Positions 7,101-63,379 of a stretch of DNA of 63,379 nucleotides are shown in pieces (within the stretch, counting starts at the first letter, position 1; the number at the start of each line of letters is the position of its first letter). The DNA is taken from the NCBI GenBank assembly GCA_013204605.1, contig JABMNI010000075.1, forward strand, positions 1 to 63,379. Direction: 5' to 3'. The position numbers were made by a program, and so were the translations under genes. The DNA is from Ignavibacteria bacterium (lineage in GTDB: Bacteria > Bacteroidota > Ignavibacteria > Kapaibacteriales > Kapaibacteriaceae). Below the pieces are notes generated by a model, which had not been told where the DNA came from, ran no database searches, and saw only the letters and a program-made list of their open reading frames with translations.

Positions 7101-10100
7101 ACTGTAGGCTGCACGGTAACGTTATGGAACGCTGTGTCAGTGCAACCATGTGAATTCGTTGCAATCAATCTAACGATGGCTGCAAATGGGTTATACGTAC
7201 CATCACAATTAAGTAAATGAACTCCCCAGTTTACTGTATACGGGTTAACTGTTAGGTTACCAGTATTATTAGCCGTCATTGGTGTGGTTCCTGAAGGCGC
7301 ACCCGGAACCGGCTCGATTCTCCAATCGAATGTTGAAGTAGGAGAAGGAGTTACGGCAGCGGCTGTGTAGTTGGCAGTGGATGGTCCACAAGCAACTGCA
7401 CTACCCGAGATTGAGGCAACAGGTTTTTCATTAACTGTAATGTTGGTCGAACCGTACGTTGCAGGACATCCGGACGGAGGTACTTGACGTGGGTACGTGC
7501 CATTCGAAATAAGAACAGCCTGAACATTTACATTGTTTATAACAACGAAGTTTGAAGGGTTGGCAGCTTGAATCAAAGTGGAGTTAAACACCAAGTTCTT
7601 AGGATTACCATCTCCAAATATGTATTGAACTGGAGACAATGAAGTAGCTCCAACCTTTACTTCGTAACGCACGCCTGCTTGAGTTGAAGCAAGGTCTACA
7701 GTAATGTTACTTTCCCAGCAAACTGGGTTTGGAACAAATGTTACTGTAGGGTTAAGTGGATCAGCAAATATTCTAGCAGTGGGAATCTGAGTCATTGTGG
7801 TTGCGCATCCACTACCTGGCGGGAATACCGCATTGCACTGTGCTGTTGGATCAATTGCTCCAGTAACTCTGTACTGATAATTATCTGCATTCAATAGCGA
7901 GTTAGTGCTACCGATGCCTGCAGTCGAGTTGTCAGTCATTGTCAAAGCGCCATTATTACCACTCAATGTTTGGATGTTAGTCCATACACCAGCTGGAATT
8001 GTACTGCGCTCAAGAGTATAAAGTACGGTCGGCTGAGATGGCTGACCAGCTGTACCAACAGTTAATGTAACGTTGTCAACATCGCAAGTGATAGGCGTAT
8101 TGTTTACAACCGGAATATCATTTGGTTTGTCAAATACATGATAGTCAACGTTGCCTGTTACTGAAGTGCGAGTCCAGTTACAAGCTCCACCCGCTGGCAC
8201 AAATGCAAGGTCCATCGAAGTAACTCGAAGATCGTGATGCGTACAAGTAGGGGCTGGGTTAACCGAAGTCAATACCGAAGCAGGAATTGTAATGTTGATT
8301 GCAGCACCGGTACCCGCAACCTGCGTTACAGCAGCTACGTTAGACCATGTTGCACCATTCCACTCTTCAACTCTATACGTAAGTCCAACCTTCGAACCAG
8401 AAAGTTGCACAGTTCCAATTGCGCCTTCGCAAATATCAGCCAGTCCAACAATCGAAGTTGTGAAGGTCAGAGGCCAGTTTGGAATAATTGGCAAATTGAT
8501 GTTTGGCTCTATCGAGGTAGCAAAACACGGAGCAGGCAGCGCTACGGCCGGATCGCTAGTGAATACTAAGTATTTCACTTTTCCAGGAGTGGCACCTGTC
8601 CAAACCACTTGAATTGAAGTTTGGTTCAGTGTTGCTGTTGTGTTAGTTCCTTGAGAAATATTGCCACCGTTCACTATGAAACCGTTAGTTACATACCACT
8701 GATACCAGTGATTAGCCAAAGGAGTAGGAGCGGCATACGTGTATTTCTGGGCCGTAGGGTTAACTGCAAACGTAGCAGCAACCGGATTTGCAAAGTACTG
8801 AGAGTCAATACAAGCATTAGTTTGAGGCGTAGGAGCTGGCTGCGGATTAGCAGGAGCAGCTACAACGACTAGTGTGTAAACAGTTCTGCGCAAGCATCCC
8901 ACAGGATCCGTAGCGTCGATTTGTACTGTTTTCGTTCCAGCAGCACCCCAGTTAGTAACTGAGATTGCAGGTGCAGCACCTAATGTTTGTGCCGTACCGT
9001 TTGTAGTTCCGCCACCACCTAGGAGGGTGATTACAATGCCGGCAGTCGTACCTGCACCAGTTTGGTATAGATAGGCGCCGTTATAGTTTGTTATTGAGTA
9101 TCCCTGAGGATAGTTACCAGCACATACTGGAGTTACGAAATCAACTACTGGGCGAACCGGACGGGTATTAACTGTCAGTGGTGCCGTTACATTCGGAACT
9201 GTAGTACAGCTTGCTGCACCAAGAACATCAGTAAAGGTTGTAGTAATAGTATATGTACCAGCAGTTAAAACGTTTGCTAGTGAAGAGTCACCGATAGTAG
9301 CATTGAAGTTAAATGTTGCCAAGTTAGATACCGTTGGTCCGATAACTACCACTGCTGAGCCTGTGTAGGCTGCAACTGGAGTGATCGTAACTGTCCAGCT
9401 TCTTGTAACTCCACCACCAGGGTAAGCTGATCCGTTTGCAACGTAGGCATAAGTACCACCAACACAAACTGGAGTTGGAACTGTAGGTGCAGCCGTTGTT
9501 GGCGTAGGAACAACTTGAAGTGTTGCGTTAAACTGTACTGAACATCCACCAACACCAGGGTTAGTAACTGTACATATAATGTTACCAGCAGCAATACCAG
9601 GTCCTGCGTTAACACCCTGAGCGGTAACACTAGGGTTAATTATAGAACCAATGTAGGTAACGTTAGCAGGAGTTGTTGTTGTCCAAGAATAGGTTGCACC
9701 AGGTAGAACCGTTCCACCCGTTGCATTAAATGTAAATACTGCTGTGTTGCCGTTACAAACCTGCGTTGTTGCAGGCGTGACATTACCCGTAGGTAGTGGG
9801 TTTACAGTAATATCAAACTCACGCTCAGTAACGCAAGCGGTACCAGGAGCTGTTGTTTCCGTTACTCGAATACGAGCTGTTGTTACAGCCGCGTTATAGG
9901 TAACACTAAATTGACCGTTTGCTGGGTTTAATGCGACCGAAATCACACCGTTGTTAACCATCGAAACGGCGAAGAGGTTCGTATTTGCCCAAACACCGCT
10001 CAGTTGGTATACATGAGGTCCGGTGCCTGCACAAGGATTTGCCGCGACAACAGTAACATAACCAGGACCCGCGATACTACGTGGAGTAGGGGATGCCGTT

Positions 10101-12451: not shown

Positions 12452-12455
12452 ACTA

Positions 12456-12461
12456 TCCTCC
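12456..12461 (-). promoter_or_regulatory. Strong Shine-Dalgarno of the giant gene
   Basis: On the minus strand GGAGGA is followed by TAGT and ATG (12451). It decides the start codon against the longer open frame to 12619. Confidence 0.8.
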
Positions 12462-12840
12462 GAAATTGTGTAATGATTGATATAGTTTTTTTCATAATGA
12501 ATTTCTTTTTTAGGATCTGCCGTAAACTCCGAAAGGCGCTCATTGCGCCTAAAATTTTCTGTTTGATTTTCGTTTGAAACGCACCCTCTCGGTTCGCTTC
12601 CGTAGTACCTATCGTTCATAAGCCTCTCGAAATTATACGTCCTAAAGACGCGAAACGGCGCACACCACCCCCAACCGAGGAGACGGTGTCACCAAAAGCG
12701 ATGCTAAAATACCTCTCAGCCGCCTGACCACCAAAACATAATTGTCCAGATTGACCAATCAGGTTGATTTTTTTGCGATTATTTTCCAGAAGTACCATTT
12801 GCTACGATTAAACACTCAATATGTGATTAACAATTCTAAC

Positions 12841-12860
12841 CTGTGAAATGAATTTCACAG
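12841..12860. promoter_or_regulatory. Perfect inverted repeat, candidate operator
   Basis: CTGTGAAAT and ATTTCACAG are perfect inverted arms around a GA spacer. The TGTGA/TCACA half-sites recall CRP/FNR-family operators, but the space between them is 8 rather than 6 bases. It lies about 390 bases upstream of the giant gene's start. It could also be an RNA hairpin. Confidence 0.4.
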
Positions 12861-12966
12861 ATTTACACCAACCGACACTCCAACTTTCCCTTTACATAGG
12901 GTTTGTTGCCAAATCGATTTGCTGGCACAATACGTTCCACAAGACTCGTGCCAAAAAAACGTAGAA

Positions 12967-13974
12967 TTACATGTCGTGACTAAGCCGCGCCTGTACCACA
13001 GGCTCCCACATTCTCTCAGCTAACTCCGCCATCCCAACCCCGGAAACCGCCGAAATAAGTCTGGCTTTGTGCTTTTTGACAAACTTCGATTTCTGTAAGT
13101 CTTTTATTTGGTCAGCACTTAACACGTCAATTTTAGTCATGCAGACAACATACTCCTTTTTCAACAAGGTCTTTTCGTGCTGCTTTAACTCGTTACGTAA
13201 AACCTTGAGGTCCTGATCGGGGTTCTCACTTGAACAGTCAATGAGGAATACCAACACGGCCGTACGTTCAATGTGCCGTAAGAATTGGTGACCCAACCCC
13301 TTGCCCTGATGAGCCCCCTCAATGAGTCCCGGTATATCGGCAACGGTGTATGAGCGGTGCTCACCTAGCCGCACCAACCCAAGATTGGGTATCAACGTTG
13401 TGAATGGGTAATCGGCAATCTTAGGCTTTGCCGCGCTGATGCTGCTGATAAGCGTACTCTTGCCCGCATTGGGGAAGCCCACTAACCCTACATCTGCCAA
13501 TAGCTTAAGCTCTAATTCAAGCTCTAGTTCCGCGCCAGGACGTCCCGGTTCGAAGTTTCTGGGCACCTGGTTGGTTGCAGTTACAAACTCTTGGTTCCCT
13601 CTGCCACCTCGGCCGCCCTCAGCCAATATCACCTCTATTCCGTCCTTGTCTAGGTCGGCTAACTGCTCACCGGTTTCCCGGTTTCGTATCACGGTTCCGC
13701 ATGGTACACGTATGTACACGTCAGGAGCGCTTTTACCCGTGCAGTTGTTCTTGCCTCCGGGGTCTCCGTTCTTTGCTTTGTAATTACGCTTGTACGTGAA
13801 ATCTAACAACGTTCCCAGTTGACGGTCGGCTTTCACGATAATCGTGCCGCCTCTGCCGCCATTTCCTCCGTCGGGTCCGCCGTTAGGCACGAACTTTTCA
13901 CGACGAAATGAAACGTGACCCTTGCCACCGTCGCCAGATTTGACGGTGATCCATGTCGAGTCTATAAAATTCAT
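12967..13974 (-). CDS. obgE: Obg family GTPase (ribosome assembly)
   Basis: The 335-residue product matches the usual Obg length. The glycine-rich Obg fold fills residues 1 to about 155, with repeated GGxGGxGG turns such as GGPDGGNGGRGG. The G domain follows, with P-loop GFPNAGKST, switch region DYPFTT, and G3 DIPGL. The G4 motif reads TKID and the G5-like stretch is SAVSGVG. Obg binds the large ribosomal subunit and links GTP level to ribosome maturation. The start overlaps the stop of the upstream gene by 4 bases (ATGA), so translation is coupled to the unknown protein at 13971-15347. The acidic run ELELELELK before the P-loop is a small oddity. Confidence 0.96.
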   Translation of the reverse strand: MNFIDSTWITVKSGDGGKGHVSFRREKFVPNGGPDGGNGGRGGTIIVKADRQLGTLLDFTYKRNYKAKNGDPGGKNNCTGKSAPDVYIRVPCGTVIRNRETGEQLADLDKDGIEVILAEGGRGGRGNQEFVTATNQVPRNFEPGRPGAELELELELKLLADVGLVGFPNAGKSTLISSISAAKPKIADYPFTTLIPNLGLVRLGEHRSYTVADIPGLIEGAHQGKGLGHQFLRHIERTAVLVFLIDCSSENPDQDLKVLRNELKQHEKTLLKKEYVVCMTKIDVLSADQIKDLQKSKFVKKHKARLISAVSGVGMAELAERMWEPVVQARLSHDM

Positions 13975-15347
13975 ATGTATACCCTGTGTATTGCCTGTGC
14001 TAACTCCATGGCTAATGCCGAGTTAGGCTGTATTCCGCGTTTAGCGTACGCTCTATCCAATTCCGCAGCTGCATCTTTCCAATTCCCTGCTGCGCACACG
14101 GCTTCTACAAGGTCGTTAAACTGTTCTGCCTGCCTGCCAAATAACTTCCGAACTATCTTATCTCGCTGCGATCCGTCTAGTAACTCGCCCAATTTCACCG
14201 CCCTCAGCGCTAAAACATTGGGGTCTACGGTCGCATCGGGTGCGCTCTTGCTTGTCAATTCTTTTTTGGAAGGGGCTTCTCCAGCCGCATTTGCTTGGTT
14301 AGCTGTTAGGGTATTGCTCCCATTTTTGCTTTTACCTTCGCCTTCGTCTCCATTAACCTTGGTCTCACCTTGAATGTTACTGGCTGATTCTTTTGAATCC
14401 TCCGATGGACTCGGGGTAACTTCCTGCGCACGCTCTGAATCTGAGATATCGGCTTGATCGGAGTCCGGGGTTACCGTATCTGACGGGGTTACCGTATCTG
14501 ACGGGGTTACCTGAGTTGGCGGGACTTCTGGTTGACCAAACTGGACACCCGAGGCTTCTATTTCGGCAATTACTCTGTCAACGGTTTCCAAAAATCGCTT
14601 GCGCGTGAGATATTTCAAATCGGAATTATACAGTTCCTGCTCCAATGCCTGCGAGAGTGGGATAGCCCCCTTATCATCAAGAAAAATAATGACGGCTTCT
14701 GTTGGAACGGTTTCGGGCAGTAAATCGGGGTTGTTTTCGGCAAAAAACTCGAATATGGGGTCTAACAACTCCACAAATTCGGATTGCGATAGGTCGAGTA
14801 TTGCCTCGTTATCTATGTCTTCCACGATTTTCTCGAATTCCACTACCGATAAAAGGTCGGCTGTGGCGTTGGTCTGAGCCCCCTTGCCACGAATCCAAGC
14901 TCGAATTCCGTCTGTTAAATATTGATAGTCGAACAGAAAGTCTAGTCTAAGTAGTATCTCGTTAAGGGGCTTAGTGGGCTCGCCACGAAATACGAACCAC
15001 TTTAGGGTGGTGCGCGGACGGCACAGGAAGTTCAACCGGGTTTTTATGGCGCCGTCGAGGGTGTTTTGCAAATGCTCGGCGTTGAACCGGGCGGTGCGAA
15101 CGTACAACTCATCCAGTTTGGCTAGAGTTTCGCGGTGCGCAGCGTTGGTAATATCGAACCGTGGATTGCCTGCCCTATAACCGCGCTCTTCATATACCCA
15201 CCAGCCGGCCTCGGCACCAAAAAATGTTTTGTAGGCCTTATGCAATCGGTCGTTACCCATTACAGATTGTAACGTGACGTGCTGGTCCGAAGCCGCAAGT
15301 AACGTGGTTACGTGCTTCTTGGCCCGATCTAATTCCTTTTCAAACAT
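13971..15347 (-). CDS. Unknown cytoplasmic protein upstream of obgE, with TP-rich linker
   Basis: The product has 458 residues and no signal peptide or membrane segment. Residues 1-275 look like a folded, mostly helical domain rich in Trp, Phe and charged residues. Residues about 275-375 are a disordered Ser/Thr/Pro/Glu linker with tandem TPSDTV units. The last 85 residues form a short helical domain starting near VDPNVLALRAVKLG. It is sandwiched between radA (41-bp gap) and obgE (4-bp overlap). I do not recognise the family; the coupling suggests a housekeeping role, which is inference. Confidence 0.85.
   Translation of the reverse strand: MFEKELDRAKKHVTTLLAASDQHVTLQSVMGNDRLHKAYKTFFGAEAGWWVYEERGYRAGNPRFDITNAAHRETLAKLDELYVRTARFNAEHLQNTLDGAIKTRLNFLCRPRTTLKWFVFRGEPTKPLNEILLRLDFLFDYQYLTDGIRAWIRGKGAQTNATADLLSVVEFEKIVEDIDNEAILDLSQSEFVELLDPIFEFFAENNPDLLPETVPTEAVIIFLDDKGAIPLSQALEQELYNSDLKYLTRKRFLETVDRVIAEIEASGVQFGQPEVPPTQVTPSDTVTPSDTVTPDSDQADISDSERAQEVTPSPSEDSKESASNIQGETKVNGDEGEGKSKNGSNTLTANQANAAGEAPSKKELTSKSAPDATVDPNVLALRAVKLGELLDGSQRDKIVRKLFGRQAEQFNDLVEAVCAAGNWKDAAAELDRAYAKRGIQPNSALAMELAQAIHRVYI
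14470..14511. repeat. 18-bp tandem repeat in the unknown gene
   Basis: Two exact 18-bp units (14470-14487 and 14488-14505) plus a 6-base third unit encode TPSDTV repeats in the linker. The 18-bp unit keeps the frame if copy number changes. Confidence 0.9.
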
Positions 15348-46659: not shown

Positions 46660-48633
<1,974 letters not shown>

Positions 48634-48638
48634 TGTAA

Positions 48639-51600
48639 TTAGTGCACCACAGCAAAAGTTGACTGAACCAGAAAGCCCCCTACATTCACAACTACGTAAT
48701 ACATGCCGTTAGGGAGTGTTGCTGTTGGAAGTACAAATGAAGTATCGCCGTTTTGAATTTGTACGTTGATGGGCGTGATGGCATCGGAGCCGGACGGTAG
48801 AATTATACGGACGGTAGCTGTGCCGTTTTGATTCCATCGCACGTTAACATTTGCATCGCCCCAGGTTGGGTTTGGACTAATCGACGCAATAATTGGCGCG
48901 GCTTTGTCGATAATTTTTCTATTCGGGTCAGGCAGAATAATTCGTAGTTCACCATTCGCTTGCGTAGTGGTAACAGTTACTCCAAAACTCAATTGATTTG
49001 TATCTGAGAGCAAGGGGCTGAAATCTGTATCGGCAAGTCCGGCAGATCCTATTACGCGACCAATTTCCATTTTGCCACGGAAGCGTCCGGTAATTTTATA
49101 TCGGACCAACCGTTGACCATTGCTGACGTTTTGTGAAATAATTTCGCCGGTTCCAATTTCGGATGTTACGCTGTGTGCAAAAAACAATCGTGAGTTCACG
49201 GTAAATGCTCCTTCAAAAAATCGTTCGCCATCGTAGGCAACATTTTCAGAAATGGAAGCGTTGATTGGAATGCTGGTGGTATCTGAGCGTGGGTCGGCTG
49301 TAACGCTTGGCAAACTAACAGTGGCGCTGCCGGAATATCTGGCCAACAAAATTTCGGTTGCTGCTGCGCACGGCGAAATTTTTAACGATAGTCGAGCACC
49401 TTGTCCAACGGGTCCGCCGTTGTACTGGATACGCACTCTCAAAGAGTCTAAAGGGCCAATGGTAACGGGAATGTTTGTAAGAATGGTAAACGGCTCGAGA
49501 TCAGTTATCGATGCCGAATCAACCGTTATAGGATTTTCCGAATTATTTCGAATAACAAGTTCACGAATGGGAATCTCAGGTATAAACGGTAATGCTCTGT
49601 GCGATAGGGTTATATCGGCCCCCGAGCCCCTTCCCGTAACTCGTACTACACGTTTAATGACTGATTGATCGGCGTAGCGAATAATAATATTGGAAGTATC
49701 GAAACCTAGTTTGCGCGGCGCAAATTCTATTGGAAGTTCTAGCACGCCGCCAGGAGGAATTGTTACGTTGGCGCTGAAACTAACAACGCGGAACTGCGCT
49801 AGTAAACCGAACTCCATGAAGACAGTGTTTATGGTCACCGCAATCGAATCGTTATTTCTAACCAGCACAAATTGTTTGGTGAGTGATTTGCCTACACACA
49901 CGTCGCCAAAATCTTCAAGGAGAGTCATAACGGATATGTTACGATCGATACTAAACATTTCGAGTGGCAGACTAAATCTGTTACTACATGATGTAAACCG
50001 AAGTGTATCCGTTAGCAAGCCGGTATCAAGCGGGAGAACTGTGAATTCAAGAGTCATGCATTGTCCGGGCATCAACGTGTCATTTTCTATTTGCGTTTTC
50101 AACGTCAGCCATTTTGAAAACATCAGGTTAGCCGTTTCAAAAACCACGGGTGTTGGTCCTACGTTGCATACCGAGGCGCGCAGAATAGTGTCGGTTGTTG
50201 TGCCAATTAGCAGACTCTTAAACGCCACATTTTTGAGGTCCAACTGCGGCGGAACAATTCTGAAAACATTATCAGACTGGTCAGACTCAGGCGTTGCTAC
50301 TCTGCGCATTAACACGTTTCGAATACTATCCACCGAGGTCGAAACTAACGTTGAACCGTCTGGACCGAATGCCAAATCCGTCATGACATTCTCGTGTCCA
50401 TCTGCAAATCCACTTGGAGGCAACGTTTTTGCCGTGACTAAATCATACGCTACGAATTGCGGCTGACCCATGTAGCCGGAGGCAAGAAAGGCATCGTTCG
50501 GACTAAACCTAAGACTCACTGCGTCTGTTCCTTCACGGTACAACACCTTCACAATGGAATTGGTTTGCATGTCGTAAATAAACGTGCGCTGTTCGCGAGG
50601 TGCATTGAATGCTTGTAGTGATTGTCCTCCAAGCGCCATCAGTCGGCCGGTTAGGCTAGCTCCCATTCGAAATGTTGACGGACCAAATGAAGACTGAATA
50701 CCTGTTTGCGATCTGCGAATTTCTGTAGCATCGATTGCATTATATGTTACTGCGGTTCCATCCATCAAATGAGCGGCAAGCGTATTGCCATTCAATGTTG
50801 ATGTCTGCGCCGGTGCTGAAAGTTCTATTGGAGTTCTTTCGATTAGCGTTACCGGATCGTACCGTAAAATTCTTCCCGAACCTTGCGGAAGAATCCACAA
50901 ATTTTGCCCTTGCTGATCTGTACCAATATCGCGCACCGTAATATCGGTAGGCACCACCACGGTTTGTGTTGGTGTGGAAGTACCATTTGTAAACGCTAAC
51001 ATCGAAGCCGATCTTCCACCACTGCTTCGTATTGCCACAAAATTTCTGGTCTGGCCTATATAGCCCATTGCCGTTATTTGCAGGCTGCCCAACGCAACGT
51101 TGTATTTCTGAACCTGTGTTGCTGTACCAATATTCCACTCGATTATCGATCCGTTTCCGTATGCAATAAGCAGGTATTTACTATCGGCACTATATGCAAG
51201 TTTTGTAGCGGGCGATTTTTCACCATACAACCAAATTGGTGCCGTGGATTGAAATTTTTGCGAAACGCGAATTCGTGCACTGTCGGAGTATTCCTTCGGC
51301 ACCGTCCATGTGTACGAAGAGTCGGCAGTGGAGTCAATAAATTTCCACGATTTTCCATTGTCTAATGTGTAGTCTACATACGCCGTGAAATTCGGAATCA
51401 TCCCCTTCCACTCCAACCTAACTTTCTGGCATGGCGTAATATTTTCGCCACCGTTTGGCGATACTACATTTAGAATCGTCCTTCTTGGATACGTACTCGG
51501 ATTTGCAAACAACATTACATCGGTATGCATTCCACCCTCGAACGTAATTGTCAGCACATCGAACAACGGTTCATTGTTAGTAGGAAAACACTCAACATCA

Positions 51601-52208
51601 ATTCTGTATTCAATTGGCGACAAAATATCAACCGGCGGTGCCGCGGTCCCCAAAGACCCCTTCCAAGTAATCTTGAATTTGTTAGTGAGCGTGGTGATAG
51701 ATTCAAGGCGAACCCGGCGTTCATTTGTAGTGCCCGGAATTCGTGGCGCTTCGGTGGCTACTACTTTCAACTTTTTCAATTTCGATGTTCCGGCTGGAAT
51801 CACTCCATAATCTAAGAACCCCGGTATATTTCTGCTCATAGAATCACGCACTACTAATCGCGCTCCTACTTTATCGGCAGGTGCCGAGCCAGGTATAAAC
51901 GAATTTGTAGTGAACCCTTTATGGTACACAACAAAGTTTGCCGAAGCACTTCCCGAAATACACGTCCACTCAACCACGTGAATTCCGTTCGATTCTTGAA
52001 CAACGACCGTGGGTGAAAACGTTACGTTATTCTCGAACATAAAAACACTTTGAGCAGTTACATTAACAGGCTGGCCAGCCTCTGTCACCCGAAATCTGGC
52101 TCGCAGCTTGGGGAACGTTGAAACGTCGATCGCCGACCCCGTATTAAATGCAACAGGCACCACGCTGATTTGCGCGGCGGCACTGCCGCAAACGAACAGC
52201 AACGACAA
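48639..52208 (-). CDS. T9SS-type surface protein with WD40-like and ASH domains (1189 aa)
   Basis: The visible start is TTG 52208, giving MSLLFVCGSAAAQ, a signal peptide with no positive n-region. In frame upstream the codons read AFIYRAFVVLL, a proper signal peptide, but with no ATG, GTG or TTG back to the stop; ATT at 52232 is the best candidate. Domains: an Ig-like SPNGGENITPCQKVRLEW unit near 250; WD40-like repeats (SADSKYLLIAYGNGSIIEWN, FGPDGSTLVSTSVDS) at about 325-645; two or three ASH/choice-of-anchor D domains (VCVGKSLTKQFVLVRNNDS) at about 660-990; and a type A sorting domain with ISPNPTWGDANVNV and LPNGMYYVVVNVGG. Confidence 0.85.
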   Translation of the reverse strand: MSLLFVCGSAAAQISVVPVAFNTGSAIDVSTFPKLRARFRVTEAGQPVNVTAQSVFMFENNVTFSPTVVVQESNGIHVVEWTCISGSASANFVVYHKGFTTNSFIPGSAPADKVGARLVVRDSMSRNIPGFLDYGVIPAGTSKLKKLKVVATEAPRIPGTTNERRVRLESITTLTNKFKITWKGSLGTAAPPVDILSPIEYRIDVECFPTNNEPLFDVLTITFEGGMHTDVMLFANPSTYPRRTILNVVSPNGGENITPCQKVRLEWKGMIPNFTAYVDYTLDNGKSWKFIDSTADSSYTWTVPKEYSDSARIRVSQKFQSTAPIWLYGEKSPATKLAYSADSKYLLIAYGNGSIIEWNIGTATQVQKYNVALGSLQITAMGYIGQTRNFVAIRSSGGRSASMLAFTNGTSTPTQTVVVPTDITVRDIGTDQQGQNLWILPQGSGRILRYDPVTLIERTPIELSAPAQTSTLNGNTLAAHLMDGTAVTYNAIDATEIRRSQTGIQSSFGPSTFRMGASLTGRLMALGGQSLQAFNAPREQRTFIYDMQTNSIVKVLYREGTDAVSLRFSPNDAFLASGYMGQPQFVAYDLVTAKTLPPSGFADGHENVMTDLAFGPDGSTLVSTSVDSIRNVLMRRVATPESDQSDNVFRIVPPQLDLKNVAFKSLLIGTTTDTILRASVCNVGPTPVVFETANLMFSKWLTLKTQIENDTLMPGQCMTLEFTVLPLDTGLLTDTLRFTSCSNRFSLPLEMFSIDRNISVMTLLEDFGDVCVGKSLTKQFVLVRNNDSIAVTINTVFMEFGLLAQFRVVSFSANVTIPPGGVLELPIEFAPRKLGFDTSNIIIRYADQSVIKRVVRVTGRGSGADITLSHRALPFIPEIPIRELVIRNNSENPITVDSASITDLEPFTILTNIPVTIGPLDSLRVRIQYNGGPVGQGARLSLKISPCAAATEILLARYSGSATVSLPSVTADPRSDTTSIPINASISENVAYDGERFFEGAFTVNSRLFFAHSVTSEIGTGEIISQNVSNGQRLVRYKITGRFRGKMEIGRVIGSAGLADTDFSPLLSDTNQLSFGVTVTTTQANGELRIILPDPNRKIIDKAAPIIASISPNPTWGDANVNVRWNQNGTATVRIILPSGSDAITPINVQIQNGDTSFVLPTATLPNGMYYVVVNVGGFLVQSTFAVVH

Positions 52209-54942: not shown

Positions 54943-55002
54943 AGTTCCGCGCAGTTGGTAAGAAATCAATCCAGCAAAGATACGGGTTCTAGGCTCAGGG
55001 CT

Positions 55003-56262
55003 TCATTCCACTAACACCACAAACACTTTAGCCCCCTCCCGCACCATAACCACACCAGAGCGCACTACAGCAGTGGCATCCAACCGTTTGCCATTCACAT
55101 CGGTGTATGTGGTTTGAGCTGCGCGGTGCTTGCGCCATTCTACGAATTCTTCCCGCGTCATGGAGAGTTTCTGCGGCGCATCAATTTCTGCTGCCACCTC
55201 CGTGGGTTCTTCTTCAACTGATACTGGTGGCTCGGGTTCCTTTATGCGGTACACGCCAACCTTGTTTGTGTCTTCGATGACGGCGATGTAGAAGTAGCCT
55301 TGGGACCAGCCACCAGACCAGCCTGTAATGACACGAACTCCGTTATACTCTAACTTTGGTACTATAATTGGGCACCGAAGTACAGTGTCTCCACCATAGT
55401 AAACGTAGCGGAAGAAAGCGGTATCACCAATACTGGACGCTGCTTCTGTAAACAAACAACCGTGTCGACCCGCACACCCATTTATCAAAGGGCCTTGATA
55501 AAGCACAACTCGCTCTATTGTGTGTCCACCATGCTCAATATTAACCGAAAGCAAATTGCCCGATTTGTCAATCCATCTGACTTCCGAACCGTCCACAGTT
55601 ACATTCATCCATGCATTAGGTCTCCCGCCAAAATGATATCCTGGTGGATATTCATCGTAGAACGGATAGGGCCGTGCCTGATCATATGAGATATGCACTA
55701 CTGTATCCATCACTACAAAGGCCTCACACGGTCCCCAATTAACAGGCGTACCACTAAAGCCAAAATATGTTGAATCTTGTGGGAGTTTTACCAACCACCT
55801 TTTGAGGTACTCAACCGCCACAACCGCTCCATTCACTGCCGTAATCTGTGTAGCCCACACACCATTCCATGGTGCCTTTTCATAGTAATATCTGAAATTG
55901 TCAAAGTTAGAATTGCACGATGCCAGTAGGCTCCTCACAACTGTAATGCGCCGTGTAAAGTAGATCGTAGTATCATCTGAAAAAACTCCTTGCTGAAACC
56001 TCTCCCCTTCAAACAGCTTTTGCTCTATCTTCTCGCCCTGTATTGTTACTAAGTGCGTCCGATACTCCGTCGTGGCTAGGGGTAAAACTAACACGACTCC
56101 GTGCGGAGAACATCGAAAAAATGTTTCTCCATTACTAAAGCCATAAACATAGAATTCAGTTTCCGTGGTCACGGTCATGACCCTCTCCAGTTCGGCAGGC
56201 TGTGCAGCCAGCATACAAGGCATGCACAATAGAAAAACAAATCTTACAATGTACTCTTTCAC
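55003..56262 (-). CDS. X1: exported protein of a local paralogous family
   Basis: GTG start; the GTGA overlap with Y1 couples the two. The 419-residue product has a signal peptide (FVFLLCMPCMLAAQPA). A beta-rich N-terminal part contains GVVLVLPLATTEYRTHLV, QGEKIEQKLFEG and FQQGVFSDDTTIYF. Homologous segments in X2 and X3 suggest a propeller-like fold; that is inference. The C-terminal 115 residues (GYFYIAVIEDTNKVGVYRI, an acidic linker, EEFVEWRKHRA and VNGKRLDATAVVRSGV...) are nearly identical in all three X proteins. The end (DVNGKRL, GVVMVREGAKVFVVLVE) looks like a shortened T9SS type A domain. Function unknown. Confidence 0.8.
   Translation of the reverse strand: MKEYIVRFVFLLCMPCMLAAQPAELERVMTVTTETEFYVYGFSNGETFFRCSPHGVVLVLPLATTEYRTHLVTIQGEKIEQKLFEGERFQQGVFSDDTTIYFTRRITVVRSLLASCNSNFDNFRYYYEKAPWNGVWATQITAVNGAVVAVEYLKRWLVKLPQDSTYFGFSGTPVNWGPCEAFVVMDTVVHISYDQARPYPFYDEYPPGYHFGGRPNAWMNVTVDGSEVRWIDKSGNLLSVNIEHGGHTIERVVLYQGPLINGCAGRHGCLFTEAASSIGDTAFFRYVYYGGDTVLRCPIIVPKLEYNGVRVITGWSGGWSQGYFYIAVIEDTNKVGVYRIKEPEPPVSVEEEPTEVAAEIDAPQKLSMTREEFVEWRKHRAAQTTYTDVNGKRLDATAVVRSGVVMVREGAKVFVVLVE
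55012..55318. repeat. Near-identical 3' block of X1
   Basis: Shares most bases with 57600-57899 and 58952-59258 (shared 3' ends of X2 and X3), while the upstream parts of the genes have diverged. This suggests gene conversion or recent duplication with end exchange. Confidence 0.8.
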
Positions 56263-56807
56263 GGTAATACCACCTTTCGTGCATCTGTTGAGAGAATCTG
56301 CACAGTTCCCAAGCCGAATCTAGCCTTCTCCAGAAACGCGCACTCAATTGAAATTGAATCAATTCGTATCGGTACAGCGTCTCCAATAGCGCGAAAGCAA
56401 TGTTGAGACAGCCAAGCTAACGGTAGGTTGAATTCCTCAACTGTACTCATGTTGCCGTAGTAAGATCTTGTACGCCCAACAATGATGCGTTGACCTTGTT
56501 GCCCGGTCTCATACACGTTTATCCAACTGCTCGGTGTGGCGTCTGTAACGCCAGTTTGCTCATAATGCCGTGGCACGCCACCGGGGGGAGTTTTGGGTGG
56601 AACTACCGGTGGTGGGTTACTCACTGTAATCTTCTGCCCACACAGAAAAGGCTCGGTTACTTCCGGCCAATAACTTGGAATGGAATTAGACGGCAACACC
56701 GGTGTCGGCACGAGTCTATATGTACCATCCCATGACTTTTCATACAATGATGTAAGCGTGAGCATTGCCAGGCGCTCCAATAGCACCGATGGTACCGTTG
56801 CTTGCAC
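56259..56807 (-). CDS. Y1: short member of the Y family
   Basis: The 182-residue frame starts at GTG 56807, 3 bases after Z; ATG 56765 is an alternative with a GGAG site. There is no signal peptide. A proline-rich linker (NPPPVVPPKTPPGG) leads into HYEQTGVTDATPSSWINVYE, identical to Y2. The C-terminal half (SYYGNMSTVEEFNLPLAWL, IRIDSISIECAFLE, FGLGTVQILSTDARKVVLP) aligns with the end of Y2. So it is the same protein without Y2's long central part. Function unknown. It ends inside the X1 start codon. Confidence 0.75.
   Translation of the reverse strand: MQATVPSVLLERLAMLTLTSLYEKSWDGTYRLVPTPVLPSNSIPSYWPEVTEPFLCGQKITVSNPPPVVPPKTPPGGVPRHYEQTGVTDATPSSWINVYETGQQGQRIIVGRTRSYYGNMSTVEEFNLPLAWLSQHCFRAIGDAVPIRIDSISIECAFLEKARFGLGTVQILSTDARKVVLP
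56473..56597. repeat. 125-bp direct repeat, copy in Y1
   Basis: Base-for-base identical to 63255-63379, as far as the window allows. It covers the proline linker and the HYEQTG...IVGR region of the Y genes. The match may continue past the window end. Confidence 0.95.
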
Positions 56808-56810
56808 GTT

Positions 56811-57422
56811 CTATACCGCTATGATGTCCAACTCGTACATGGTCCAATCGGGAGTAGAATTATTATTTATTCCCAACAATCCCAGTGTGAATCTTCCGGT
56901 GTTGCGGAACACCAAGTTTAACTGACTTGGTCCTGAATACGGACCCGACGCCCAACGGTACACCGGCACGGTTCCTTGCATGTCACCGCGCGTTGCCGCA
57001 TTCTCTAAAAAACTTAATTGTAATTCTGTGAATGCCGGTGACGATCCCAAGCCGATGGGAATAGAATTATACCACTGTACACCGGCGCGAACAAACACTG
57101 TTTTTCTAAGCGGTGGTGCCACGGTACTAGCTACGTTACTTGTTTTGTTAAGAAGATTCCAACTCACGGCATCGAACACCATTTGCTGTTCATCTGATGA
57201 GTTGGTAATGATAGTCGCCTCGCCTGAAACAGCAATTGGGCTACTTATCCAAGCTGATCCGACGGCCGGTTGAATGTAATCGTTGCTCAAATACCAATCG
57301 CCGGCCACCGTGCTCACCCCTAGTCCAGCGTATACGATTTGATCACGAGGATCAATAGGCGCCATTTGCTGGAAATCATTCCAACTCTTTACCGTTGACA
57401 TGTCCTTGCATCCGCAGCTCAT
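56811..57422 (-). CDS. Z: unknown protein upstream of Y1
   Basis: ATG 57422 follows an AAGAGGTG site; the frame's own GTG three bases earlier is less likely. The 203-residue product starts MSCGCKDMSTVK, without a signal peptide. It is beta-rich (GEATIITNSSDEQQMVFDAV, KTVFVRAGVQWYNSIPIGLG, RFTLGLLGINNNSTPD) and looks like a carbohydrate-binding or appendage-type sandwich, but no family is recognised. It ends 3 bases before Y1, so Z-Y1-X1 is probably one operon. Confidence 0.7.
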   Translation of the reverse strand: MSCGCKDMSTVKSWNDFQQMAPIDPRDQIVYAGLGVSTVAGDWYLSNDYIQPAVGSAWISSPIAVSGEATIITNSSDEQQMVFDAVSWNLLNKTSNVASTVAPPLRKTVFVRAGVQWYNSIPIGLGSSPAFTELQLSFLENAATRGDMQGTVPVYRWASGPYSGPSQLNLVFRNTGRFTLGLLGINNNSTPDWTMYELDIIAV

Positions 57423-57507
57423 CACACACCTCTTACATTAGGTTGATTGTGTTCCTACCGCCGAATCCAAAAACACGTTGATAGGATTTCGTTTGTTCGA
57501 CAACTTA

Positions 57508-57518
57508 CCCCCCCCCCC
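57508..57518. repeat. Run of 11 C upstream of gene Z
   Basis: An uninterrupted 11-base C tract (G on the sense strand of Z) ends about 86 bases before the Z start, in the short region that must hold its promoter. Such tracts change length by slippage. It may alter promoter spacing and so switch Z-Y1-X1 expression. Confidence 0.9.
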
Positions 57519-57539
57519 TTGTCATTTCCAAACACTATT

Positions 57540-57590
57540 TCATTGCTCACGTTGAGACTTCTCGCTTCGCTCGAAGTGACACAAGGCACA
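57540..57590. repeat. REP-like palindrome downstream of X2
   Basis: ACTTC (57557-57561) and GAAGT (57573-57577) flank TCGCTTCGCTC. This sequence resembles short palindromic repeats found scattered in many bacterial genomes, whose translation gives a HFERSEKS-like peptide. It lies between the X2 stop and gene Z and may act as a terminator or be a mobile REP element. The type is from memory. Confidence 0.5.
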
Positions 57591-57595
57591 GGTGT

Positions 57596-58855
57596 CTATT
57601 CTACCAACACCACAAACACAGTAGCCCCCTCCCGTACCATAATCACACCCGCACGAACTACAGCAATCGCATCCAACCGTTTGCCATTTACATCCGTGTA
57701 CGTGGTATGAACTGCACGTTGTTTGCGCCATTCTACAAATTCTTCAGCCGTCATGGAAAGTTTTTGTGGCGCATCAATTTCTGCTGACACCTCCGTGGGT
57801 TCCCCTTCAACCGACACAGGCGGCTCGGGTTCCTTTATGCGGTACACGCCAACCTTGTTTGTGTCTTCGATTACGGCGATGTAGAAGTAGCCTAGGGACC
57901 AGCCGGCAAATGGATATGCTTTTAAACTAAAATCTGGATCTTTGGTTTTACCATTTGGATATCCAAACCTAATTGGGAAGGTTTGTCCATACCGATAGTA
58001 GTGATAAAATGTAGAATCAATGGTCCCGCGTTCGTACCTAAGACCACCGAATCTTCCAGCAACGCCAAAAGTTATAGTCGTTTCCGAATTGTCAGGCACA
58101 CCAGGACGAACCACAAAACCACCATTCTCAGTAGAAAAGGAATGCAGCATTCCACGACTGCTAATATATCTTACTGAGTCATCGACAATGCAGATGTTGG
58201 TGTTGGTTTGATACTGACCCGAAGCACCGCGTAACCACTTGTAACTAGATCCATCATGTGGAAGTTGCCATACACCATCGCTGAAAACATAGTATGTTGT
58301 ATCGCCAATTGTAAATGCTTCTGCCGGACCAGGATATTGGTAGTTGGGCATAACGTCGAAATAGGTCGAATCTTCCTTGCGCTTTACCACACAGCCTCGT
58401 CTTTCATCAACTATTGTAATCACTCCATTGAGCGCTGTGATCTGCGTTCCTTGACGGTGATCGGCATTTTCATTTTCGGTGTACCACCTCAGATTATCAA
58501 AATTCGTATCGAAAGATATTAAAAACGAGTCACTTTGAATCCAACTTGTAAAGTATAAGGTTGTATCGTCTGAAAGGACACCTTGGGAAAACCTACCCAT
58601 ATCCAATATTTTCTCAGTCACCTTACTGCCTTGAACAACCAAAACTTTGGTACGATAGGGTTTACCCGTTAACTGTAGTGCCAATACCACACCATTCGGT
58701 GATGCTCGTAGAAACGTATTACCGTTGGCGTGTATTCTGGACTCAATTGGCACATCTGTATTTACAACTGCAACCAGTTCTACAATGTAGTTTTGTGCCA
58801 TAGTATTATATACTACCCAGCACAGTGCTGTAAATATTAGAATGGGCAATCTCAT
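57596..58855 (-). CDS. X2: exported protein of the local paralogous family
   Basis: The 419-residue product starts at ATG 58855 and has a signal peptide (LPILIFTALCWVVYNTMAQ). N-terminal pattern: NTFLRASPNGVVLALQL, VVQGSKVTEKILDMGRF, GVLSDDTTLYF. Middle: VVKRKEDSTYFDV and AEAFTIGDTTYYVFSDGV, closely matching X3. The C-terminal end is shared with X1 and X3. A remnant of a Y gene overlaps its start (58852-58937). It has lost an intact Y partner. Function unknown. Confidence 0.8.
   Translation of the reverse strand: MRLPILIFTALCWVVYNTMAQNYIVELVAVVNTDVPIESRIHANGNTFLRASPNGVVLALQLTGKPYRTKVLVVQGSKVTEKILDMGRFSQGVLSDDTTLYFTSWIQSDSFLISFDTNFDNLRWYTENENADHRQGTQITALNGVITIVDERRGCVVKRKEDSTYFDVMPNYQYPGPAEAFTIGDTTYYVFSDGVWQLPHDGSSYKWLRGASGQYQTNTNICIVDDSVRYISSRGMLHSFSTENGGFVVRPGVPDNSETTITFGVAGRFGGLRYERGTIDSTFYHYYRYGQTFPIRFGYPNGKTKDPDFSLKAYPFAGWSLGYFYIAVIEDTNKVGVYRIKEPEPPVSVEGEPTEVSAEIDAPQKLSMTAEEFVEWRKQRAVHTTYTDVNGKRLDAIAVVRAGVIMVREGATVFVVLVE
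57600..57899. repeat. Near-identical 3' block of X2
   Basis: Counterpart of 55012-55318 and 58952-59258; codes for the shared ~100-residue C-terminal end of the X proteins. Confidence 0.8.
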
Positions 58856-58937
58856 GGCAACACCACCTTCATCGTATCTATAGACAAAATTTGCACGGCA
58901 CCTAAGCCAAATTGCGCTGTGGTCACTACGATTTTTG
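58852..58937 (-). pseudogene. 3' remnant of a Y gene before X2
   Basis: The frame ending at TGA 58852-58854 reads AQFGLGAVQILSIDTMKVVLP, matching the last 21 residues of Y2 with one change. The DNA matches 60192-60252 with only one or two changes in the first 60 bases. It is cut off about 10 bases after the X3 stop codon, so an earlier Y gene was deleted or only its tail was duplicated. Confidence 0.85.
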
Positions 58938-58946
58938 AAAGGGGCT

Positions 58947-60194
58947 TCATTCCACTAACACCACGAATATTTTAACCCCCTCCCTCACCATTACCACCCC
59001 CGCACGAACTACAGCAATCGCATCCAACCGTTTGCCATTTACATCCGTGTACGTGGTATGAGCTGCGCGGTGCTTGCGCCATTCCACAAATTCTTCTGCC
59101 GTCATTGAGAGTTTCTGCGGCGCATCAACTTCTGCTGACACCTCCGTGAGCTCCTCTTCGACCGACACCGGTGGCTCGGGTTCCTTTATGCGGTACACAC
59201 CAACCTTGTTTGTGTCCTCGATAACGGCGATGTAGAAGTAGCCTTGGGACCAGCCACCAGATCTGCGACCAACAACGGGATTGGAAGACTTTGATACGGA
59301 CCCTACCCAATAGTTTTGACCAGCGTTTGAACCATACCACGAGTATCTGTAATTGCTGGTATCAGCCGGCCCATAATTTAAATAGAGTAAACCGTTTCTC
59401 CCCGCAATGGCAAAAGTTGGATCCTGTTCGAACGGAGTTCCTGCGCGCTCTGCGAAGCCATTTGTTACTGAAGAAATCGAATAGAGTTTGCCTTGCAAAC
59501 CAATCCAACGAACAGAATCATCTACTATAGAAATATTGATGTCTGTGTTTATCCTTCCCCAGGCGTTGATTAAACGCATCGAACGCAATGTGTCATGAGG
59601 ATAACGTGTAACCCCATCGAAGTATATGCTGTACGTAGTATCTCCAATTGTAAAAGCCTCTGCAGGGCCGCGATACAAGTTGCTAGGATACACGTTGAAA
59701 TATGTTGTGTCTTCTTTTCGCTTTACTAGGCAATCTGATCTCGAATCCACTGCAGTAATATCTCCATTTACCGCCGTCACACTCGTCCCCAAGATTCTAC
59801 CTCCTGTTCTATTCGACGTATACTTCTTATAATTTTCAAAACTGGTATTGAAAGATACAAGAAACGAATCACTTAAATCGGAAGTGACAAAATACATGGT
59901 CGTATCATCTGACAAAACGCCTTGTGCGAATCTGCCATTCTCTAAAATCTTTTCGGTTACTTTGTCTCCCTGAACTAATGCAACTTTAGTCCGATCACGC
60001 AGCCCACCATAATGCAAAGCCAACACCACCCCGAAAGGTGAAGTCCGCATAAACGCATTTCCGCTAGCGACTACCCGGTAATCAATCAAAAGGTCAGTAA
60101 ACACTGTCGCAACCAACTCAACCGCTGGTTTTTGCGCTTGTATGTCAAAACAAGCGATCATCAGCATTGTTAAAAAGATCAATAACTTTCTCAT
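58947..60194 (-). CDS. X3: exported protein of the local paralogous family
   Basis: The 415-residue product has a signal peptide (LIFLTMLMIACFDIQAQ). N-terminal NAFMRTSPFGVVLALHY, VQGDKVTEKILENGRF and GVLSDDTTMYFV match X2. The middle shares CLVKRKEDTTYFNVYP and AEAFTIGDTTYSIYFDGV with X2. The last 110 residues are shared with X1 and X2. Its ATG overlaps the Y2 stop (ATGA), so Y2 and X3 are made together. Function unknown; a surface location through T9SS is inferred. Confidence 0.8.
   Translation of the reverse strand: MRKLLIFLTMLMIACFDIQAQKPAVELVATVFTDLLIDYRVVASGNAFMRTSPFGVVLALHYGGLRDRTKVALVQGDKVTEKILENGRFAQGVLSDDTTMYFVTSDLSDSFLVSFNTSFENYKKYTSNRTGGRILGTSVTAVNGDITAVDSRSDCLVKRKEDTTYFNVYPSNLYRGPAEAFTIGDTTYSIYFDGVTRYPHDTLRSMRLINAWGRINTDINISIVDDSVRWIGLQGKLYSISSVTNGFAERAGTPFEQDPTFAIAGRNGLLYLNYGPADTSNYRYSWYGSNAGQNYWVGSVSKSSNPVVGRRSGGWSQGYFYIAVIEDTNKVGVYRIKEPEPPVSVEEELTEVSAEVDAPQKLSMTAEEFVEWRKHRAAHTTYTDVNGKRLDAIAVVRAGVVMVREGVKIFVVLVE
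58952..59258. repeat. Near-identical 3' block of X3
   Basis: Counterpart of 55012-55318 and 57600-57899. Confidence 0.8.
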
Positions 60195-63100
60195 GGCAAC
60201 ACCACCTTCATCGTATCTACAGACAAAATTTGCACGGCACCTAAGCCAAATTGTGCAATTGTACCAGATTCAAACTCACAGAGTATAGAAATCGAACGAA
60301 TTCGTAAATCGCCAATTAATTCTTCTTTCCCGTAGCATTTTTGTACAATCCAGCTCAATGGAAGTAGAATTTCTTCAATAGTTCCCATGTCACCGTAGTA
60401 AGTCTTTGCGGAGCCACTATTACCACCTACTTCATTGGGCAATATGATACCAACATTAGTCTTTGCAATATCTGAAATGGCAAAGGTAGCCACTTCAGTT
60501 GTATCCAAAGTGAAACTACAACTGAGTTTGAATTTCTCTTTCAAGAGTCCATTTACAGCATTCAGCACTGTGTATTGAGCCCGCAAAACATCGGATGGGT
60601 TTATCTTGTATCGCAGATTCAATTTGAAATTGAACTCAACTTTTGCACCAGAAGCAAAAACAATCCTGGAATCCATGATAGGATAGGTTGCAGGAAAGGA
60701 CACAAGAAAAAACGAGTTCACGACTAACTCGCTATTCTGGAGTTCTACTCCATCGACAATCACCTTTCTTCGTGCACCTGACTTGCCAGGAAAGCCACTC
60801 TGTTTTTCAGTCGAATTATTTATTGACTCCTCTCCAACTAAACGAGCTTGCAAATGCAACTGGCTCTTGACTTTTTCAGGTCCTTCAAAGGGAAGTATTT
60901 CTACATCAGGCGGAGTCATGTTGGGGCTGAAAAAGAAATTTAAATAGTTCTCCTCAGCAAAAACCAGTGTCCTAAAAAAATAGTTGAGATAAGAAAGAAA
61001 GATAGACCTATGTTCCTGAAAAGTTCGAATTGCCCCAGTGGCAGGACCATCTAGTACTAGTTGTTTGGCTAGTTCAGTGTTGTTAATATTCTTGCTTTCA
61101 AAGTCGTCAGCTGTCCAGTCAATCCACCTGAGATGCGTGCCACCATCTACCAAGATCAATGCGCTCCAAGGTGCATAGTTTTGATAGTAATATCGAATCG
61201 GAGAAACGAGATAATCACTATATCCATCTGAATCGGGATTATTGTTTTCACATTTCAATCTTATAAAACCAAGTTGGGAATCTAGCGCTCCAAACATCGT
61301 ACAACATGGAGCTGCATCAATTACTACATCTCCACTGAGAAAAGTCGGCGCTAATAAGAATCCACCTCTAATTCGCCTAATAACAGATACAGGCACTTCT
61401 GCGGCGTATAGGGCACTTTTTGTGAGTAGCCTAGCTACCATACCGCCACCAACGCTATGACCAACAAAGAACAGTGGAGCACTACGAACAATTGGAAAAC
61501 TGTACGCGACATTCTCTAGTAACTCATTGAGAATTTGAACTATAAAAAACGTTCCAGAAGTTTGCTTTCGATGAGTAACTATTACTATGGCACCTTGTTT
61601 CACCAACATTGTGATCATAGATCTATAGTCTTGCCATGATGCCACTATAGATTTGTCTTCTAATTCTGTTTCGGCTACAGTGCCGTTGGCTGGAACAAGT
61701 ACTATGACAGGCGTATCTTCACCAAAGGATTTGAAGTTGTCAGGCTGATGCTTTTCATTCAGCCCGACGGGATAAAACACTAGAGCATTGAATTGAAACG
61801 GAGGCAACACTTTTTCTAAAACCACTGGAGGAGTGCACTCAGTGTATCCTTTCGGAGAACTATCATTAGGTTCCTCGTTTACATTAAAACGTCCATAGTC
61901 AACCCAATGTGGCCCGGCCACCTCGATTCCAGGTATAGCAAAAGAGTCAACGGTACCAACACAAGAAATTACTTCTGTTGAAATGTTGCCAGTAAGAATC
62001 ATGTCTCTCGCGGGGTCCCATTCTATGGGATCCTTCATCGGTCCGAAAACTGCGCAGATCATCCAGTTACCGTTGTCGAGGTCAAAGGGTGTAATCACGC
62101 GGTCATTGGGTAGATCGCCAATCTTGTAATGTTTACTTTCTAACACCTTGCTATTGGGGTTGAGAATTCCTGTGCGTTGCATGCGGAGGTTGGCATCACC
62201 TTTCAATACACAGAACATGACACCACCATGAGTTCTTGTACCTTCCACAATAGCTGGCGTGATGGCTATTGCAAGTTTGTCAATGAAACTCTTGCCCGTG
62301 GTTGGGTTGGTTGCTCGGCGCACAACGCTCGAGAACAGCACGCGTGGACATCCCTCCCAGAGTATTCCCACGGCGCATTCCTTTCGGATTTGCTTGAGCT
62401 TCGTTACAGGATACTGTACTACAACGGAATGGTTATCCCAAAACTGATGTTTCATGCCACCGTAATGCTCATTGTATATTTCTGTGTTCCAGCCCATAAC
62501 GACGTGTAATATTGGTAATCGCGGACTCTTGGCAGAACAATGCAGCATGAAGTCGAGGTCTTCTTCAGATAGCGGTACTGATGCTGTGTACTGGAGCGAT
62601 CTTGCATCGTATTGGTGTACGCTATCCAAACATCCCTCGATTACGTTGGTGTTCCTCGGGATGTCGGCCACGGGAATCTTTGTTGATCCAATGAATCGTA
62701 CGGATGCCGCACAAAATCCCTCGCGTGGTATAGGGTTATTTACCGGACTACTCGGCCAGTCATTTGGCACGTATTCAACGATAGATGGTTCAACGAGCCA
62801 AAAACCTACGCCCTCGAACCCTGTAGAATTGCACAAACTCCCACCGTATCCGAACGTCTGCAGAATCTGGATAACGGCAGTCACTTCCTTTTTCTCTACA
62901 TCTAACCCTATACAGCAGATTTGCTCCCAACAATTTCCAATTGGGGAACTTCTAGAAATTGGGGCGTCACCTTCATTGATCCTCTTGTCGAAATAATCGG
63001 ACTCCCTTGTTCGTGGGCTGTTGGGGTCCGCAATGGGGAAGCCCCCTAACCCACCAATTCCTATAGATTTTGGAGGCACAGGAAATGGTGAGAAACTCTG

Positions 63101-63379
63101 GTTGACCGGCGTTGAAATTAACGTGCGTAGCGAACTGGCCGGCGAGGCTAAGCCCGATAGTTTGCTCAAGTACTCGTCGACTTCAGAAAGACGCAGTTCC
63201 GGTTTTAAATCCGTGGGTGGGTTACCTTCCCAAAACTCCGTGTACGATGGAACGCGCCCAACAATGATGCGTTGACCTTGTTGCCCGGTCTCATACACGT
63301 TTATCCAACTGCTCGGTGTGGCGTCTGTAACGCCAGTTTGCTCATAATGCCGTGGCACGCCACCGGGGGGAGTTTTGGG
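60191..63379 (-). CDS. Y2: long member of the Y family with alpha/beta-hydrolase domain (5' end outside)
   Basis: The gene is open to the window edge, so the N-terminus is missing; residue numbers count from the in-frame GTG at 63358 (1055 residues visible). Residues 1-35 and the last 75 match Y1. Between them lie about 870 residues not in Y1, with an alpha/beta-hydrolase at roughly 520-790: VIVLVPANGT strand, nucleophile S635 in GHSVGGG, D693 in GALDSQ and H742 in GGTHLRWID. Spacing and order fit a serine esterase/lipase of the dienelactone-hydrolase or PETase-like fold. The substrate is unknown. It overlaps X3 by 4 bases. Confidence 0.8.
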   Translation of the reverse strand, partial: PKTPPGGVPRHYEQTGVTDATPSSWINVYETGQQGQRIIVGRVPSYTEFWEGNPPTDLKPELRLSEVDEYLSKLSGLASPASSLRTLISTPVNQSFSPFPVPPKSIGIGGLGGFPIADPNSPRTRESDYFDKRINEGDAPISRSSPIGNCWEQICCIGLDVEKKEVTAVIQILQTFGYGGSLCNSTGFEGVGFWLVEPSIVEYVPNDWPSSPVNNPIPREGFCAASVRFIGSTKIPVADIPRNTNVIEGCLDSVHQYDARSLQYTASVPLSEEDLDFMLHCSAKSPRLPILHVVMGWNTEIYNEHYGGMKHQFWDNHSVVVQYPVTKLKQIRKECAVGILWEGCPRVLFSSVVRRATNPTTGKSFIDKLAIAITPAIVEGTRTHGGVMFCVLKGDANLRMQRTGILNPNSKVLESKHYKIGDLPNDRVITPFDLDNGNWMICAVFGPMKDPIEWDPARDMILTGNISTEVISCVGTVDSFAIPGIEVAGPHWVDYGRFNVNEEPNDSSPKGYTECTPPVVLEKVLPPFQFNALVFYPVGLNEKHQPDNFKSFGEDTPVIVLVPANGTVAETELEDKSIVASWQDYRSMITMLVKQGAIVIVTHRKQTSGTFFIVQILNELLENVAYSFPIVRSAPLFFVGHSVGGGMVARLLTKSALYAAEVPVSVIRRIRGGFLLAPTFLSGDVVIDAAPCCTMFGALDSQLGFIRLKCENNNPDSDGYSDYLVSPIRYYYQNYAPWSALILVDGGTHLRWIDWTADDFESKNINNTELAKQLVLDGPATGAIRTFQEHRSIFLSYLNYFFRTLVFAEENYLNFFFSPNMTPPDVEILPFEGPEKVKSQLHLQARLVGEESINNSTEKQSGFPGKSGARRKVIVDGVELQNSELVVNSFFLVSFPATYPIMDSRIVFASGAKVEFNFKLNLRYKINPSDVLRAQYTVLNAVNGLLKEKFKLSCSFTLDTTEVATFAISDIAKTNVGIILPNEVGGNSGSAKTYYGDMGTIEEILLPLSWIVQKCYGKEELIGDLRIRSISILCEFESGTIAQFGLGAVQILSVDTMKVVLP
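63255..63379. repeat. 125-bp direct repeat, copy in Y2
   Basis: Identical to 56473-56597; runs to the window edge, so its true length is longer or equal. Confidence 0.95.

Follow-up and report, generated by a model that had tools for sequence, protein, structure and literature searches.

A Z-Y-X gene cassette of Ignavibacteria: a proposed polymorphic effector-immunity-like system

The stretch of DNA analysed in this study (63,379 nucleotides; hereafter the window) is the entire contig C75 of the genome of an Ignavibacteria bacterium (the host genome). Its terminal part carries genes of three types, X, Y and Z (Table 1), which a first-pass annotation had described as repeated pairs of coupled Y and exported X genes. 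The three X ORFs were confirmed, as were the overlaps of the X1 and X3 starts with the stops of Y1 (GTGA) and Y2 (ATGA). The start of X2 (ATGA) overlaps the stop of a Y remnant, also in agreement with that annotation, and this remnant repeats 68 nt of the Y2 3′ end. Repeat analysis of the window revealed three copies of a 300-nt X 3′ module, two identical copies of a 125-bp Y segment and three copies of the 68-nt Y tail.

Table 1. Features of the X, Y and Z genes in the window (positions are those of the whole window).
Feature	Position	Strand	Size	Remarks
X1	55003..56262	-	419 aa	GTG start; putative exported partner, coupled to the Y1 remnant via a GTGA overlap
Y1	56259..56807	-	182 aa	Y remnant without the enzyme-like middle
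Z1	56811..57425	-	204 aa	first and constant gene of the cassette; N-terminus MSCGC...; without signal peptide
X2	57596..58855	-	419 aa	ATG start; orphan X with only a Y 3′ remnant upstream
Y 3′-end remnant	58850..58917	-	68 nt	in-frame reading AQFGLGAVQILSIDTMKVVLP; 97% identity to the Y2 tail (60189-60256)
X3	58947..60194	-	415 aa	ATG start; coupled to Y2 by an ATGA overlap
Y2	60191..63379	-	at least 1062 aa	large Y; N-terminus cut by the contig end
Y2 N-terminal region	62402..63370	-		30-40% identity with the GlxA-type Y proteins L014, L070 and L079
GHSVGGG in Y2	61442..61462	-		nucleophile-elbow-like motif of the putative alpha/beta-hydrolase part; sub-threshold
Y 5′ constant segment	56473..56597	-	125 bp	100% identity to 63255-63379
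Second constant segment	63255..63379	-	125 bp	at the contig end
X 3′ module	54998..55297	-	300 nt	further copies at 57591-57890 and 58942-59241; 87-88% identity

The window closes with 125 bp that exactly repeat the Y segment; the contig therefore breaks at a repeat. Other contigs of the same genome contain a fourth X gene, two further copies of Z and a third module. Downstream of the fourth X (X4; contig C4, positions 12769-14022) come an intergenic stretch and the beginning of a Z gene, both closely similar to those following X2, and C4 stops within this second Z copy, the terminal 119 bases of the contig matching Z1 exactly. Because a second Z lies at the end of C4 and the exact 125-bp Y repeat at the end of C75, a separate Z very probably precedes Y2 past the contig break. 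Z had originally been placed before one pair; Z1 precedes Y1. The likely gene order, with the link between C4 and C75 inferred, is X4-Z2-Y2-X3-(Y tail)X2-Z1-Y1-X1.

Elsewhere in the window, positions 48639-52208 contain an ORF of 1189 aa with WD40 and ASH/HYDIN-like Ig domains and a weak T9SS sorting tail. It lies next to a 657-aa ORF (46660-48633) with a long unbroken proline run and an OmpA-like look at its C-terminus, for which no Pfam match above the cut-off was obtained. A very long ORF (3829 aa) occupies positions 1130-12619 of the minus strand.

The X genes are not chance ORFs, because dN is well below dS in all calculable comparisons and all four copies are intact. The N-terminal parts of the four copies (approximately 330 alignment columns) share 32-49% identity, with synonymous change at or beyond saturation, whereas the last ~98 residues are 85-91% identical (dS 0.33-0.67, dN 0.05-0.09). 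X1 has the same structure, with a divergent N-terminal part and the final ~98 aa in common with the other copies. This difference in divergence indicates that the two parts of X have different histories, as recombination at a shared 3′ patch would give. X2 and X4 are orphans, and tandem X genes are present in loci L075 and L076. A class-wide search found the X family of the window in one of 391 genomes, i.e. in the host only. Profile searches supported no known family for X, Z or Y1, as the first-pass annotation had stated, and AlphaFold models of X (from a 3-row alignment) and Z (from a single sequence) reached a pLDDT of 30. The X tail was also considered as a T9SS sorting domain; a search with the window copies gave no recognised match, and this assignment is not supported for them. 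A Por_Secre_tail match is significant in one X of another genome, G004.

Of Y1, ~112 aa correspond to the N-terminal and ~70 aa to the C-terminal part of the Y type represented by Y2, whose large middle part is missing; Y1 is itself a remnant. Residues 4-326 of Y2 match the N-terminal part of GlxA-type Y proteins (30-40% identity); beyond that region the proteins are different, and their X partners are unrelated. A hydrolase had been proposed in Y2. The GHSVGGG motif is indeed present, but profile hits to hydrolases are sub-threshold only, and a comparison of this region with PDB sequences returned nothing credible.

In a profile search, 32 of 391 genomes sampled from the class contained Z, with as many as seven copies per genome. 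A single-sequence search of a phylum-wide draw found it in 9 of 395 genomes; the only match from beyond the class is borderline and probably not genuine. The family has a clear consensus (SWxDL..P.DPxDLI...TRGDxQGTIPVI...); it has no match in Pfam, NCBIfam or PHROGs, and nothing credible in the PDB. Z is the constant element of the cassette, which X and Y are not. Scans of genome contigs and viral contigs with X or Z revealed no relatives, and Z is absent from plasmid and phage records, so a phage or plasmid origin is unsupported. Long variants of Z (~355 aa; L034:10818-11888 and L087:8674-9741) each adjoin a Z of normal size, that of L034 containing a large insertion inside Z. One member of the Z alignment shows a weak Ig-like match.

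Gene neighbourhoods were retrieved for some 50 Z loci. In 40 loci where Z has two adjoining genes downstream, the three share a strand in the order Z-Y-X, frequently with overlaps. The X genes of other genomes encode unrelated proteins. Export segments were scored by an N-terminal hydropathy test, a crude stand-in for a signal-peptide predictor, which gave signal-peptide-like segments in 34/40 X, 5/45 Y and 0/56 Z proteins, as against 31% of the other ORFs of the same loci. A negative Y is combined with a positive X in 32 of 40 modules, which fits the suggested combination of an unexported enzyme-like Y with an exported X. PADLOC returned no match. At the level of the cassette, the Y-X pairing holds: the earlier reading of Y and X as a coupled pair is well supported by the recurrence of the Z-Y-X order across the class. 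That reading could not reveal Z as the conserved anchor, Y as a family with swapped domains or Y1 as a remnant.

Two genomes illustrate this organization. G004 (a single contig) contains 3-4 tandem modules in which Z is near-identical, while the Y and X proteins differ. Two of its three intact X proteins carry an identical T9SS sorting tail. An orphan fragment of a T9SS sorting tail (L031:17420-17662) lies directly 3′ of the third G004 X, apparently left behind when a differently tailed X replaced an older one. The host genome has its third Z-Y-X module on contig C24. The Y protein of this module (L014:1144-4005; 953 aa) is GlxA/galactose-oxidase-like and is devoid of an N-terminal signal-peptide-like segment; it is flanked by Z and by an X with BNR repeats, an additional ORF of 101 aa separating Z from Y.

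The Y proteins form at least 24 BLAST clusters. Most of the domain types assigned to them rest on motifs, only the SLT and GlxA assignments being significant. The C24 Y is a GlxA/galactose-oxidase-like radical copper oxidase (NF052501, 6e-49; PF09118, 1.4e-19; GlxA in the PDB, 1.1e-29), and the Y proteins of L070 and L079 are homologous to it. The Y of L107 contains an SLT lytic transglycosylase domain (PF01464, 1.8e-8, above the cut-off; goose-type lysozyme, 0.003). A group defined by the motif CCxxHD alone has 14 invariant columns, mostly Cys and His; it resembles, at the level of the motif, the CxxH signature of Tox-PLA2 (PMC3482391), and a search of the PDB revealed no phospholipase and nothing credible. 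The HExxH...E group was likewise assigned by motif only. Its HExxH motif has been lost in three proteins (L071, L078 and L080), and some Y may accordingly be inactive. For this group and for the TIM-like group, comparison with PDB sequences also gave nothing credible. A further group (L085, L086, L088-L091 and L096) shows strict conservation of Glu-Pro (often DEP) and of further residues; it has no known domain and adjoins LRR-like or barrel-like exported proteins. The motif F.FGP.LG occurs at Y N-termini; it was picked after sight of the same sequences, so its p-value was disregarded. The Y N-termini matched nothing in Pfam, NCBIfam or PHROGs, and no known trafficking or delivery domain was seen in them.

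Common N-terminal regions joined to exchanged C-terminal domains were observed for Y2 relative to the Y proteins of L070, L014 and L079, and for L080 relative to L077 and L078. The L080 protein consists of 36 N-terminal residues of the L077 type (64% identity) and 254 C-terminal residues of the L078 type (73%). Its X partner has its match in L078 (59%), not in L077; in this single case X goes with the C-terminal part of Y and not with its N-terminus. Among between-genome pairs, X homology was found in 5 of 56 with homologous Y C-termini and in 4 of 700 others (odds ratio 17, permutation p 0.007), a statistic partly confounded by kinship of the genomes. The X proteins are unrelated in 51 of the related-Y pairs, i.e. 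in most of them.

The gene order, the signal-peptide-like pattern, the domain swapping, the mosaicism and the remnants were all observed directly. A constant Z, a modular Y, a fast-changing exported X, 3′ remnants and orphan X genes together constitute the pattern of polymorphic effector-immunity systems. We accordingly interpret Y as an effector and X as an immunity protein located in the envelope; Z would be an adaptor or carrier. On balance, and with moderate confidence, we favour the view that the Z-Y-X array works as such a polymorphic effector-immunity-like system and that Z is a new adaptor or carrier common to its modules; the toxicity of Y, its export, the immunity conferred by X and the role of Z are what we infer from the pattern. 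In the proposed mechanism, (i) Z would be a constant small protein made alongside each effector, with the role of an adaptor, chaperone or carrier, (ii) Y would be an effector made without a Sec signal, composed of a lineage-specific constant N-terminal region and one of many enzyme-like domains, several of which would be expected to target the cell envelope, and (iii) X would be the cognate exported protein (periplasmic, surface or lipoprotein), shielding the cell against its own or kin Y. New Y-X cassettes would arrive through recombination at common patches, namely the Y 5′ part, the Y tail and the X 3′ part. Such events would leave behind Y remnants and orphan X genes, like those of the window. 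The size of X (415-460 aa in the window and G004), which is large for an immunity protein, the T9SS tails on G004 X proteins, and the several Y classes that match no solved structure by sequence count against this explanation, as do the three HExxH-type Y proteins without their motif, the 51 related-Y pairs with unrelated X and the lack of a known contact-dependent route that would suit every host.

Y might instead be a secreted nutritional or cell-wall enzyme whose substrate is bound, or which is anchored, by X (a propeller, T9SS-tailed protein or lipoprotein), with no toxin involved. GlxA-type oxidase and SLT activities have non-toxic roles elsewhere in bacteria, the BNR and Rax2-like propellers and the Por_Secre_tail found in X typify surface proteins, and X adjoins Y, commonly with an overlap. 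For such an enzyme, however, orphan X genes, Y remnants and Y C-termini swapped together with X would be unusual, as would the rapid turnover of X (one of 391 genomes) and Y proteins devoid of Sec signals, and we regard this alternative as unlikely. The near-constant 3′ module of X, its N-terminal parts diverged to saturation and the multiple X copies per locus would also suit a mosaic surface-antigen or phase-variation locus, in which X is the functional product and Y and Z are mere recombination vehicles or donors. This is highly doubtful, given that no other gene of the cassette approaches Z in conservation and distribution, that Z does not travel with the X family of the window, that Y contains enzyme domains, and that X is elsewhere represented by unrelated proteins.

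Contractile systems require gp25. An equally improbable reading is that Y is an effector delivered by a contractile injection system (T6SS or eCIS), with X conferring immunity in the periplasm and Z acting as a CIS-related adaptor: gp25 (PF04965) is enriched in Z-positive genomes (9/32 versus 24/359 of the others, an enrichment that genome size may confound), but neither the host genome (estimated completeness 100%) nor the complete, single-contig G004 with its 3-4 Z copies has it, and no CIS genes were seen adjoining Z. Contractile delivery as a general route was rejected on these grounds. The P-loop_TraG ATPase (PF19044) is absent from all 29 Z-positive genomes tested, so a conjugative T4SS was rejected at this sensitivity. 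Neither type of machinery is a common requirement and, given the gaps in gp25 and the absence of P-loop_TraG, no known contact-dependent route fits all hosts. SprA of the T9SS is present in 51/51 genomes tested, Z-positive and Z-negative alike. T9SS cargo needs a Sec signal, and Y is a poor fit as such cargo because this signal is missing. We tentatively suggest that Z may be an undescribed delivery or carrier module that, in a lineage bearing T9SS, takes domain-swapped effectors without signals (phospholipase-, peptidase-, transglycosylase- and oxidase-like) across the envelope with no contractile or type IV machinery, the exported propellers being the immunity factors.

Antagonism systems are little described in the host lineage. 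If the effector-immunity reading is right, Z would serve to identify by sequence a large body of unannotated proteins that are putative effectors or immunity factors, and the propeller-like X proteins would be new. It would also raise the question of how envelope-targeting proteins devoid of Sec signals leave cells in which no contractile or conjugative machinery was found.

The cassette is built like a bacterial toxin-immunity system, yet it falls in no known family. The C24, L070 and L079 Y proteins carry, or are homologous to, the domain of GlxA/galactose oxidase copper radical oxidases; unlike in those enzymes, the domain is here joined to an N-terminal region linked with Z, and no signal-peptide-like segment is present at the N-terminus. 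In T6SS arrays of V. cholerae, displaced effector modules leave 3′ remnants and orphan immunity genes (PMC5361080). The Y 3′ remnant before the orphan X2 and the mosaicism via recombination are similar, whereas the V. cholerae arrays are T6SS-delivered and neither the host nor G004 has the contractile-system gp25. TANFOR proteins are mostly large, and about 87% have Sec signals (PMC7073777). Like them, the Z-Y-X cassette occurs in T9SS-bearing Bacteroidetes and has variable toxin-like domains, putative immunity genes downstream and T9SS-tailed neighbours, and a TANFOR toxin is sometimes a separate gene adjoining the constant protein. Z is set apart from them, by description and Pfam, as a protein of ~200 aa without a signal or Pfam match; Z and, as a rule, Y had neither a signal-peptide-like segment nor a match in the general Pfam search. 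The toxin domains listed for polymorphic toxins include PLA2 and GHSxG alpha/beta hydrolases, and exported immunity proteins go with some envelope-acting toxins (Zhang et al. 2012, PMC3482391). The cassette differs from these systems in that (i) Y and Z have no known trafficking domain, (ii) a separate constant Z precedes each toxin-like gene, (iii) X is exported in most loci and often propeller-like, and (iv) the Y of the window keeps a constant C-terminal tail. It resembles them in its homologues with a common N-terminal region and differing C-terminal domains, in the adjacent downstream partner, and in the export of that partner, as seen where polymorphic toxins act at the envelope (PMC3482391).
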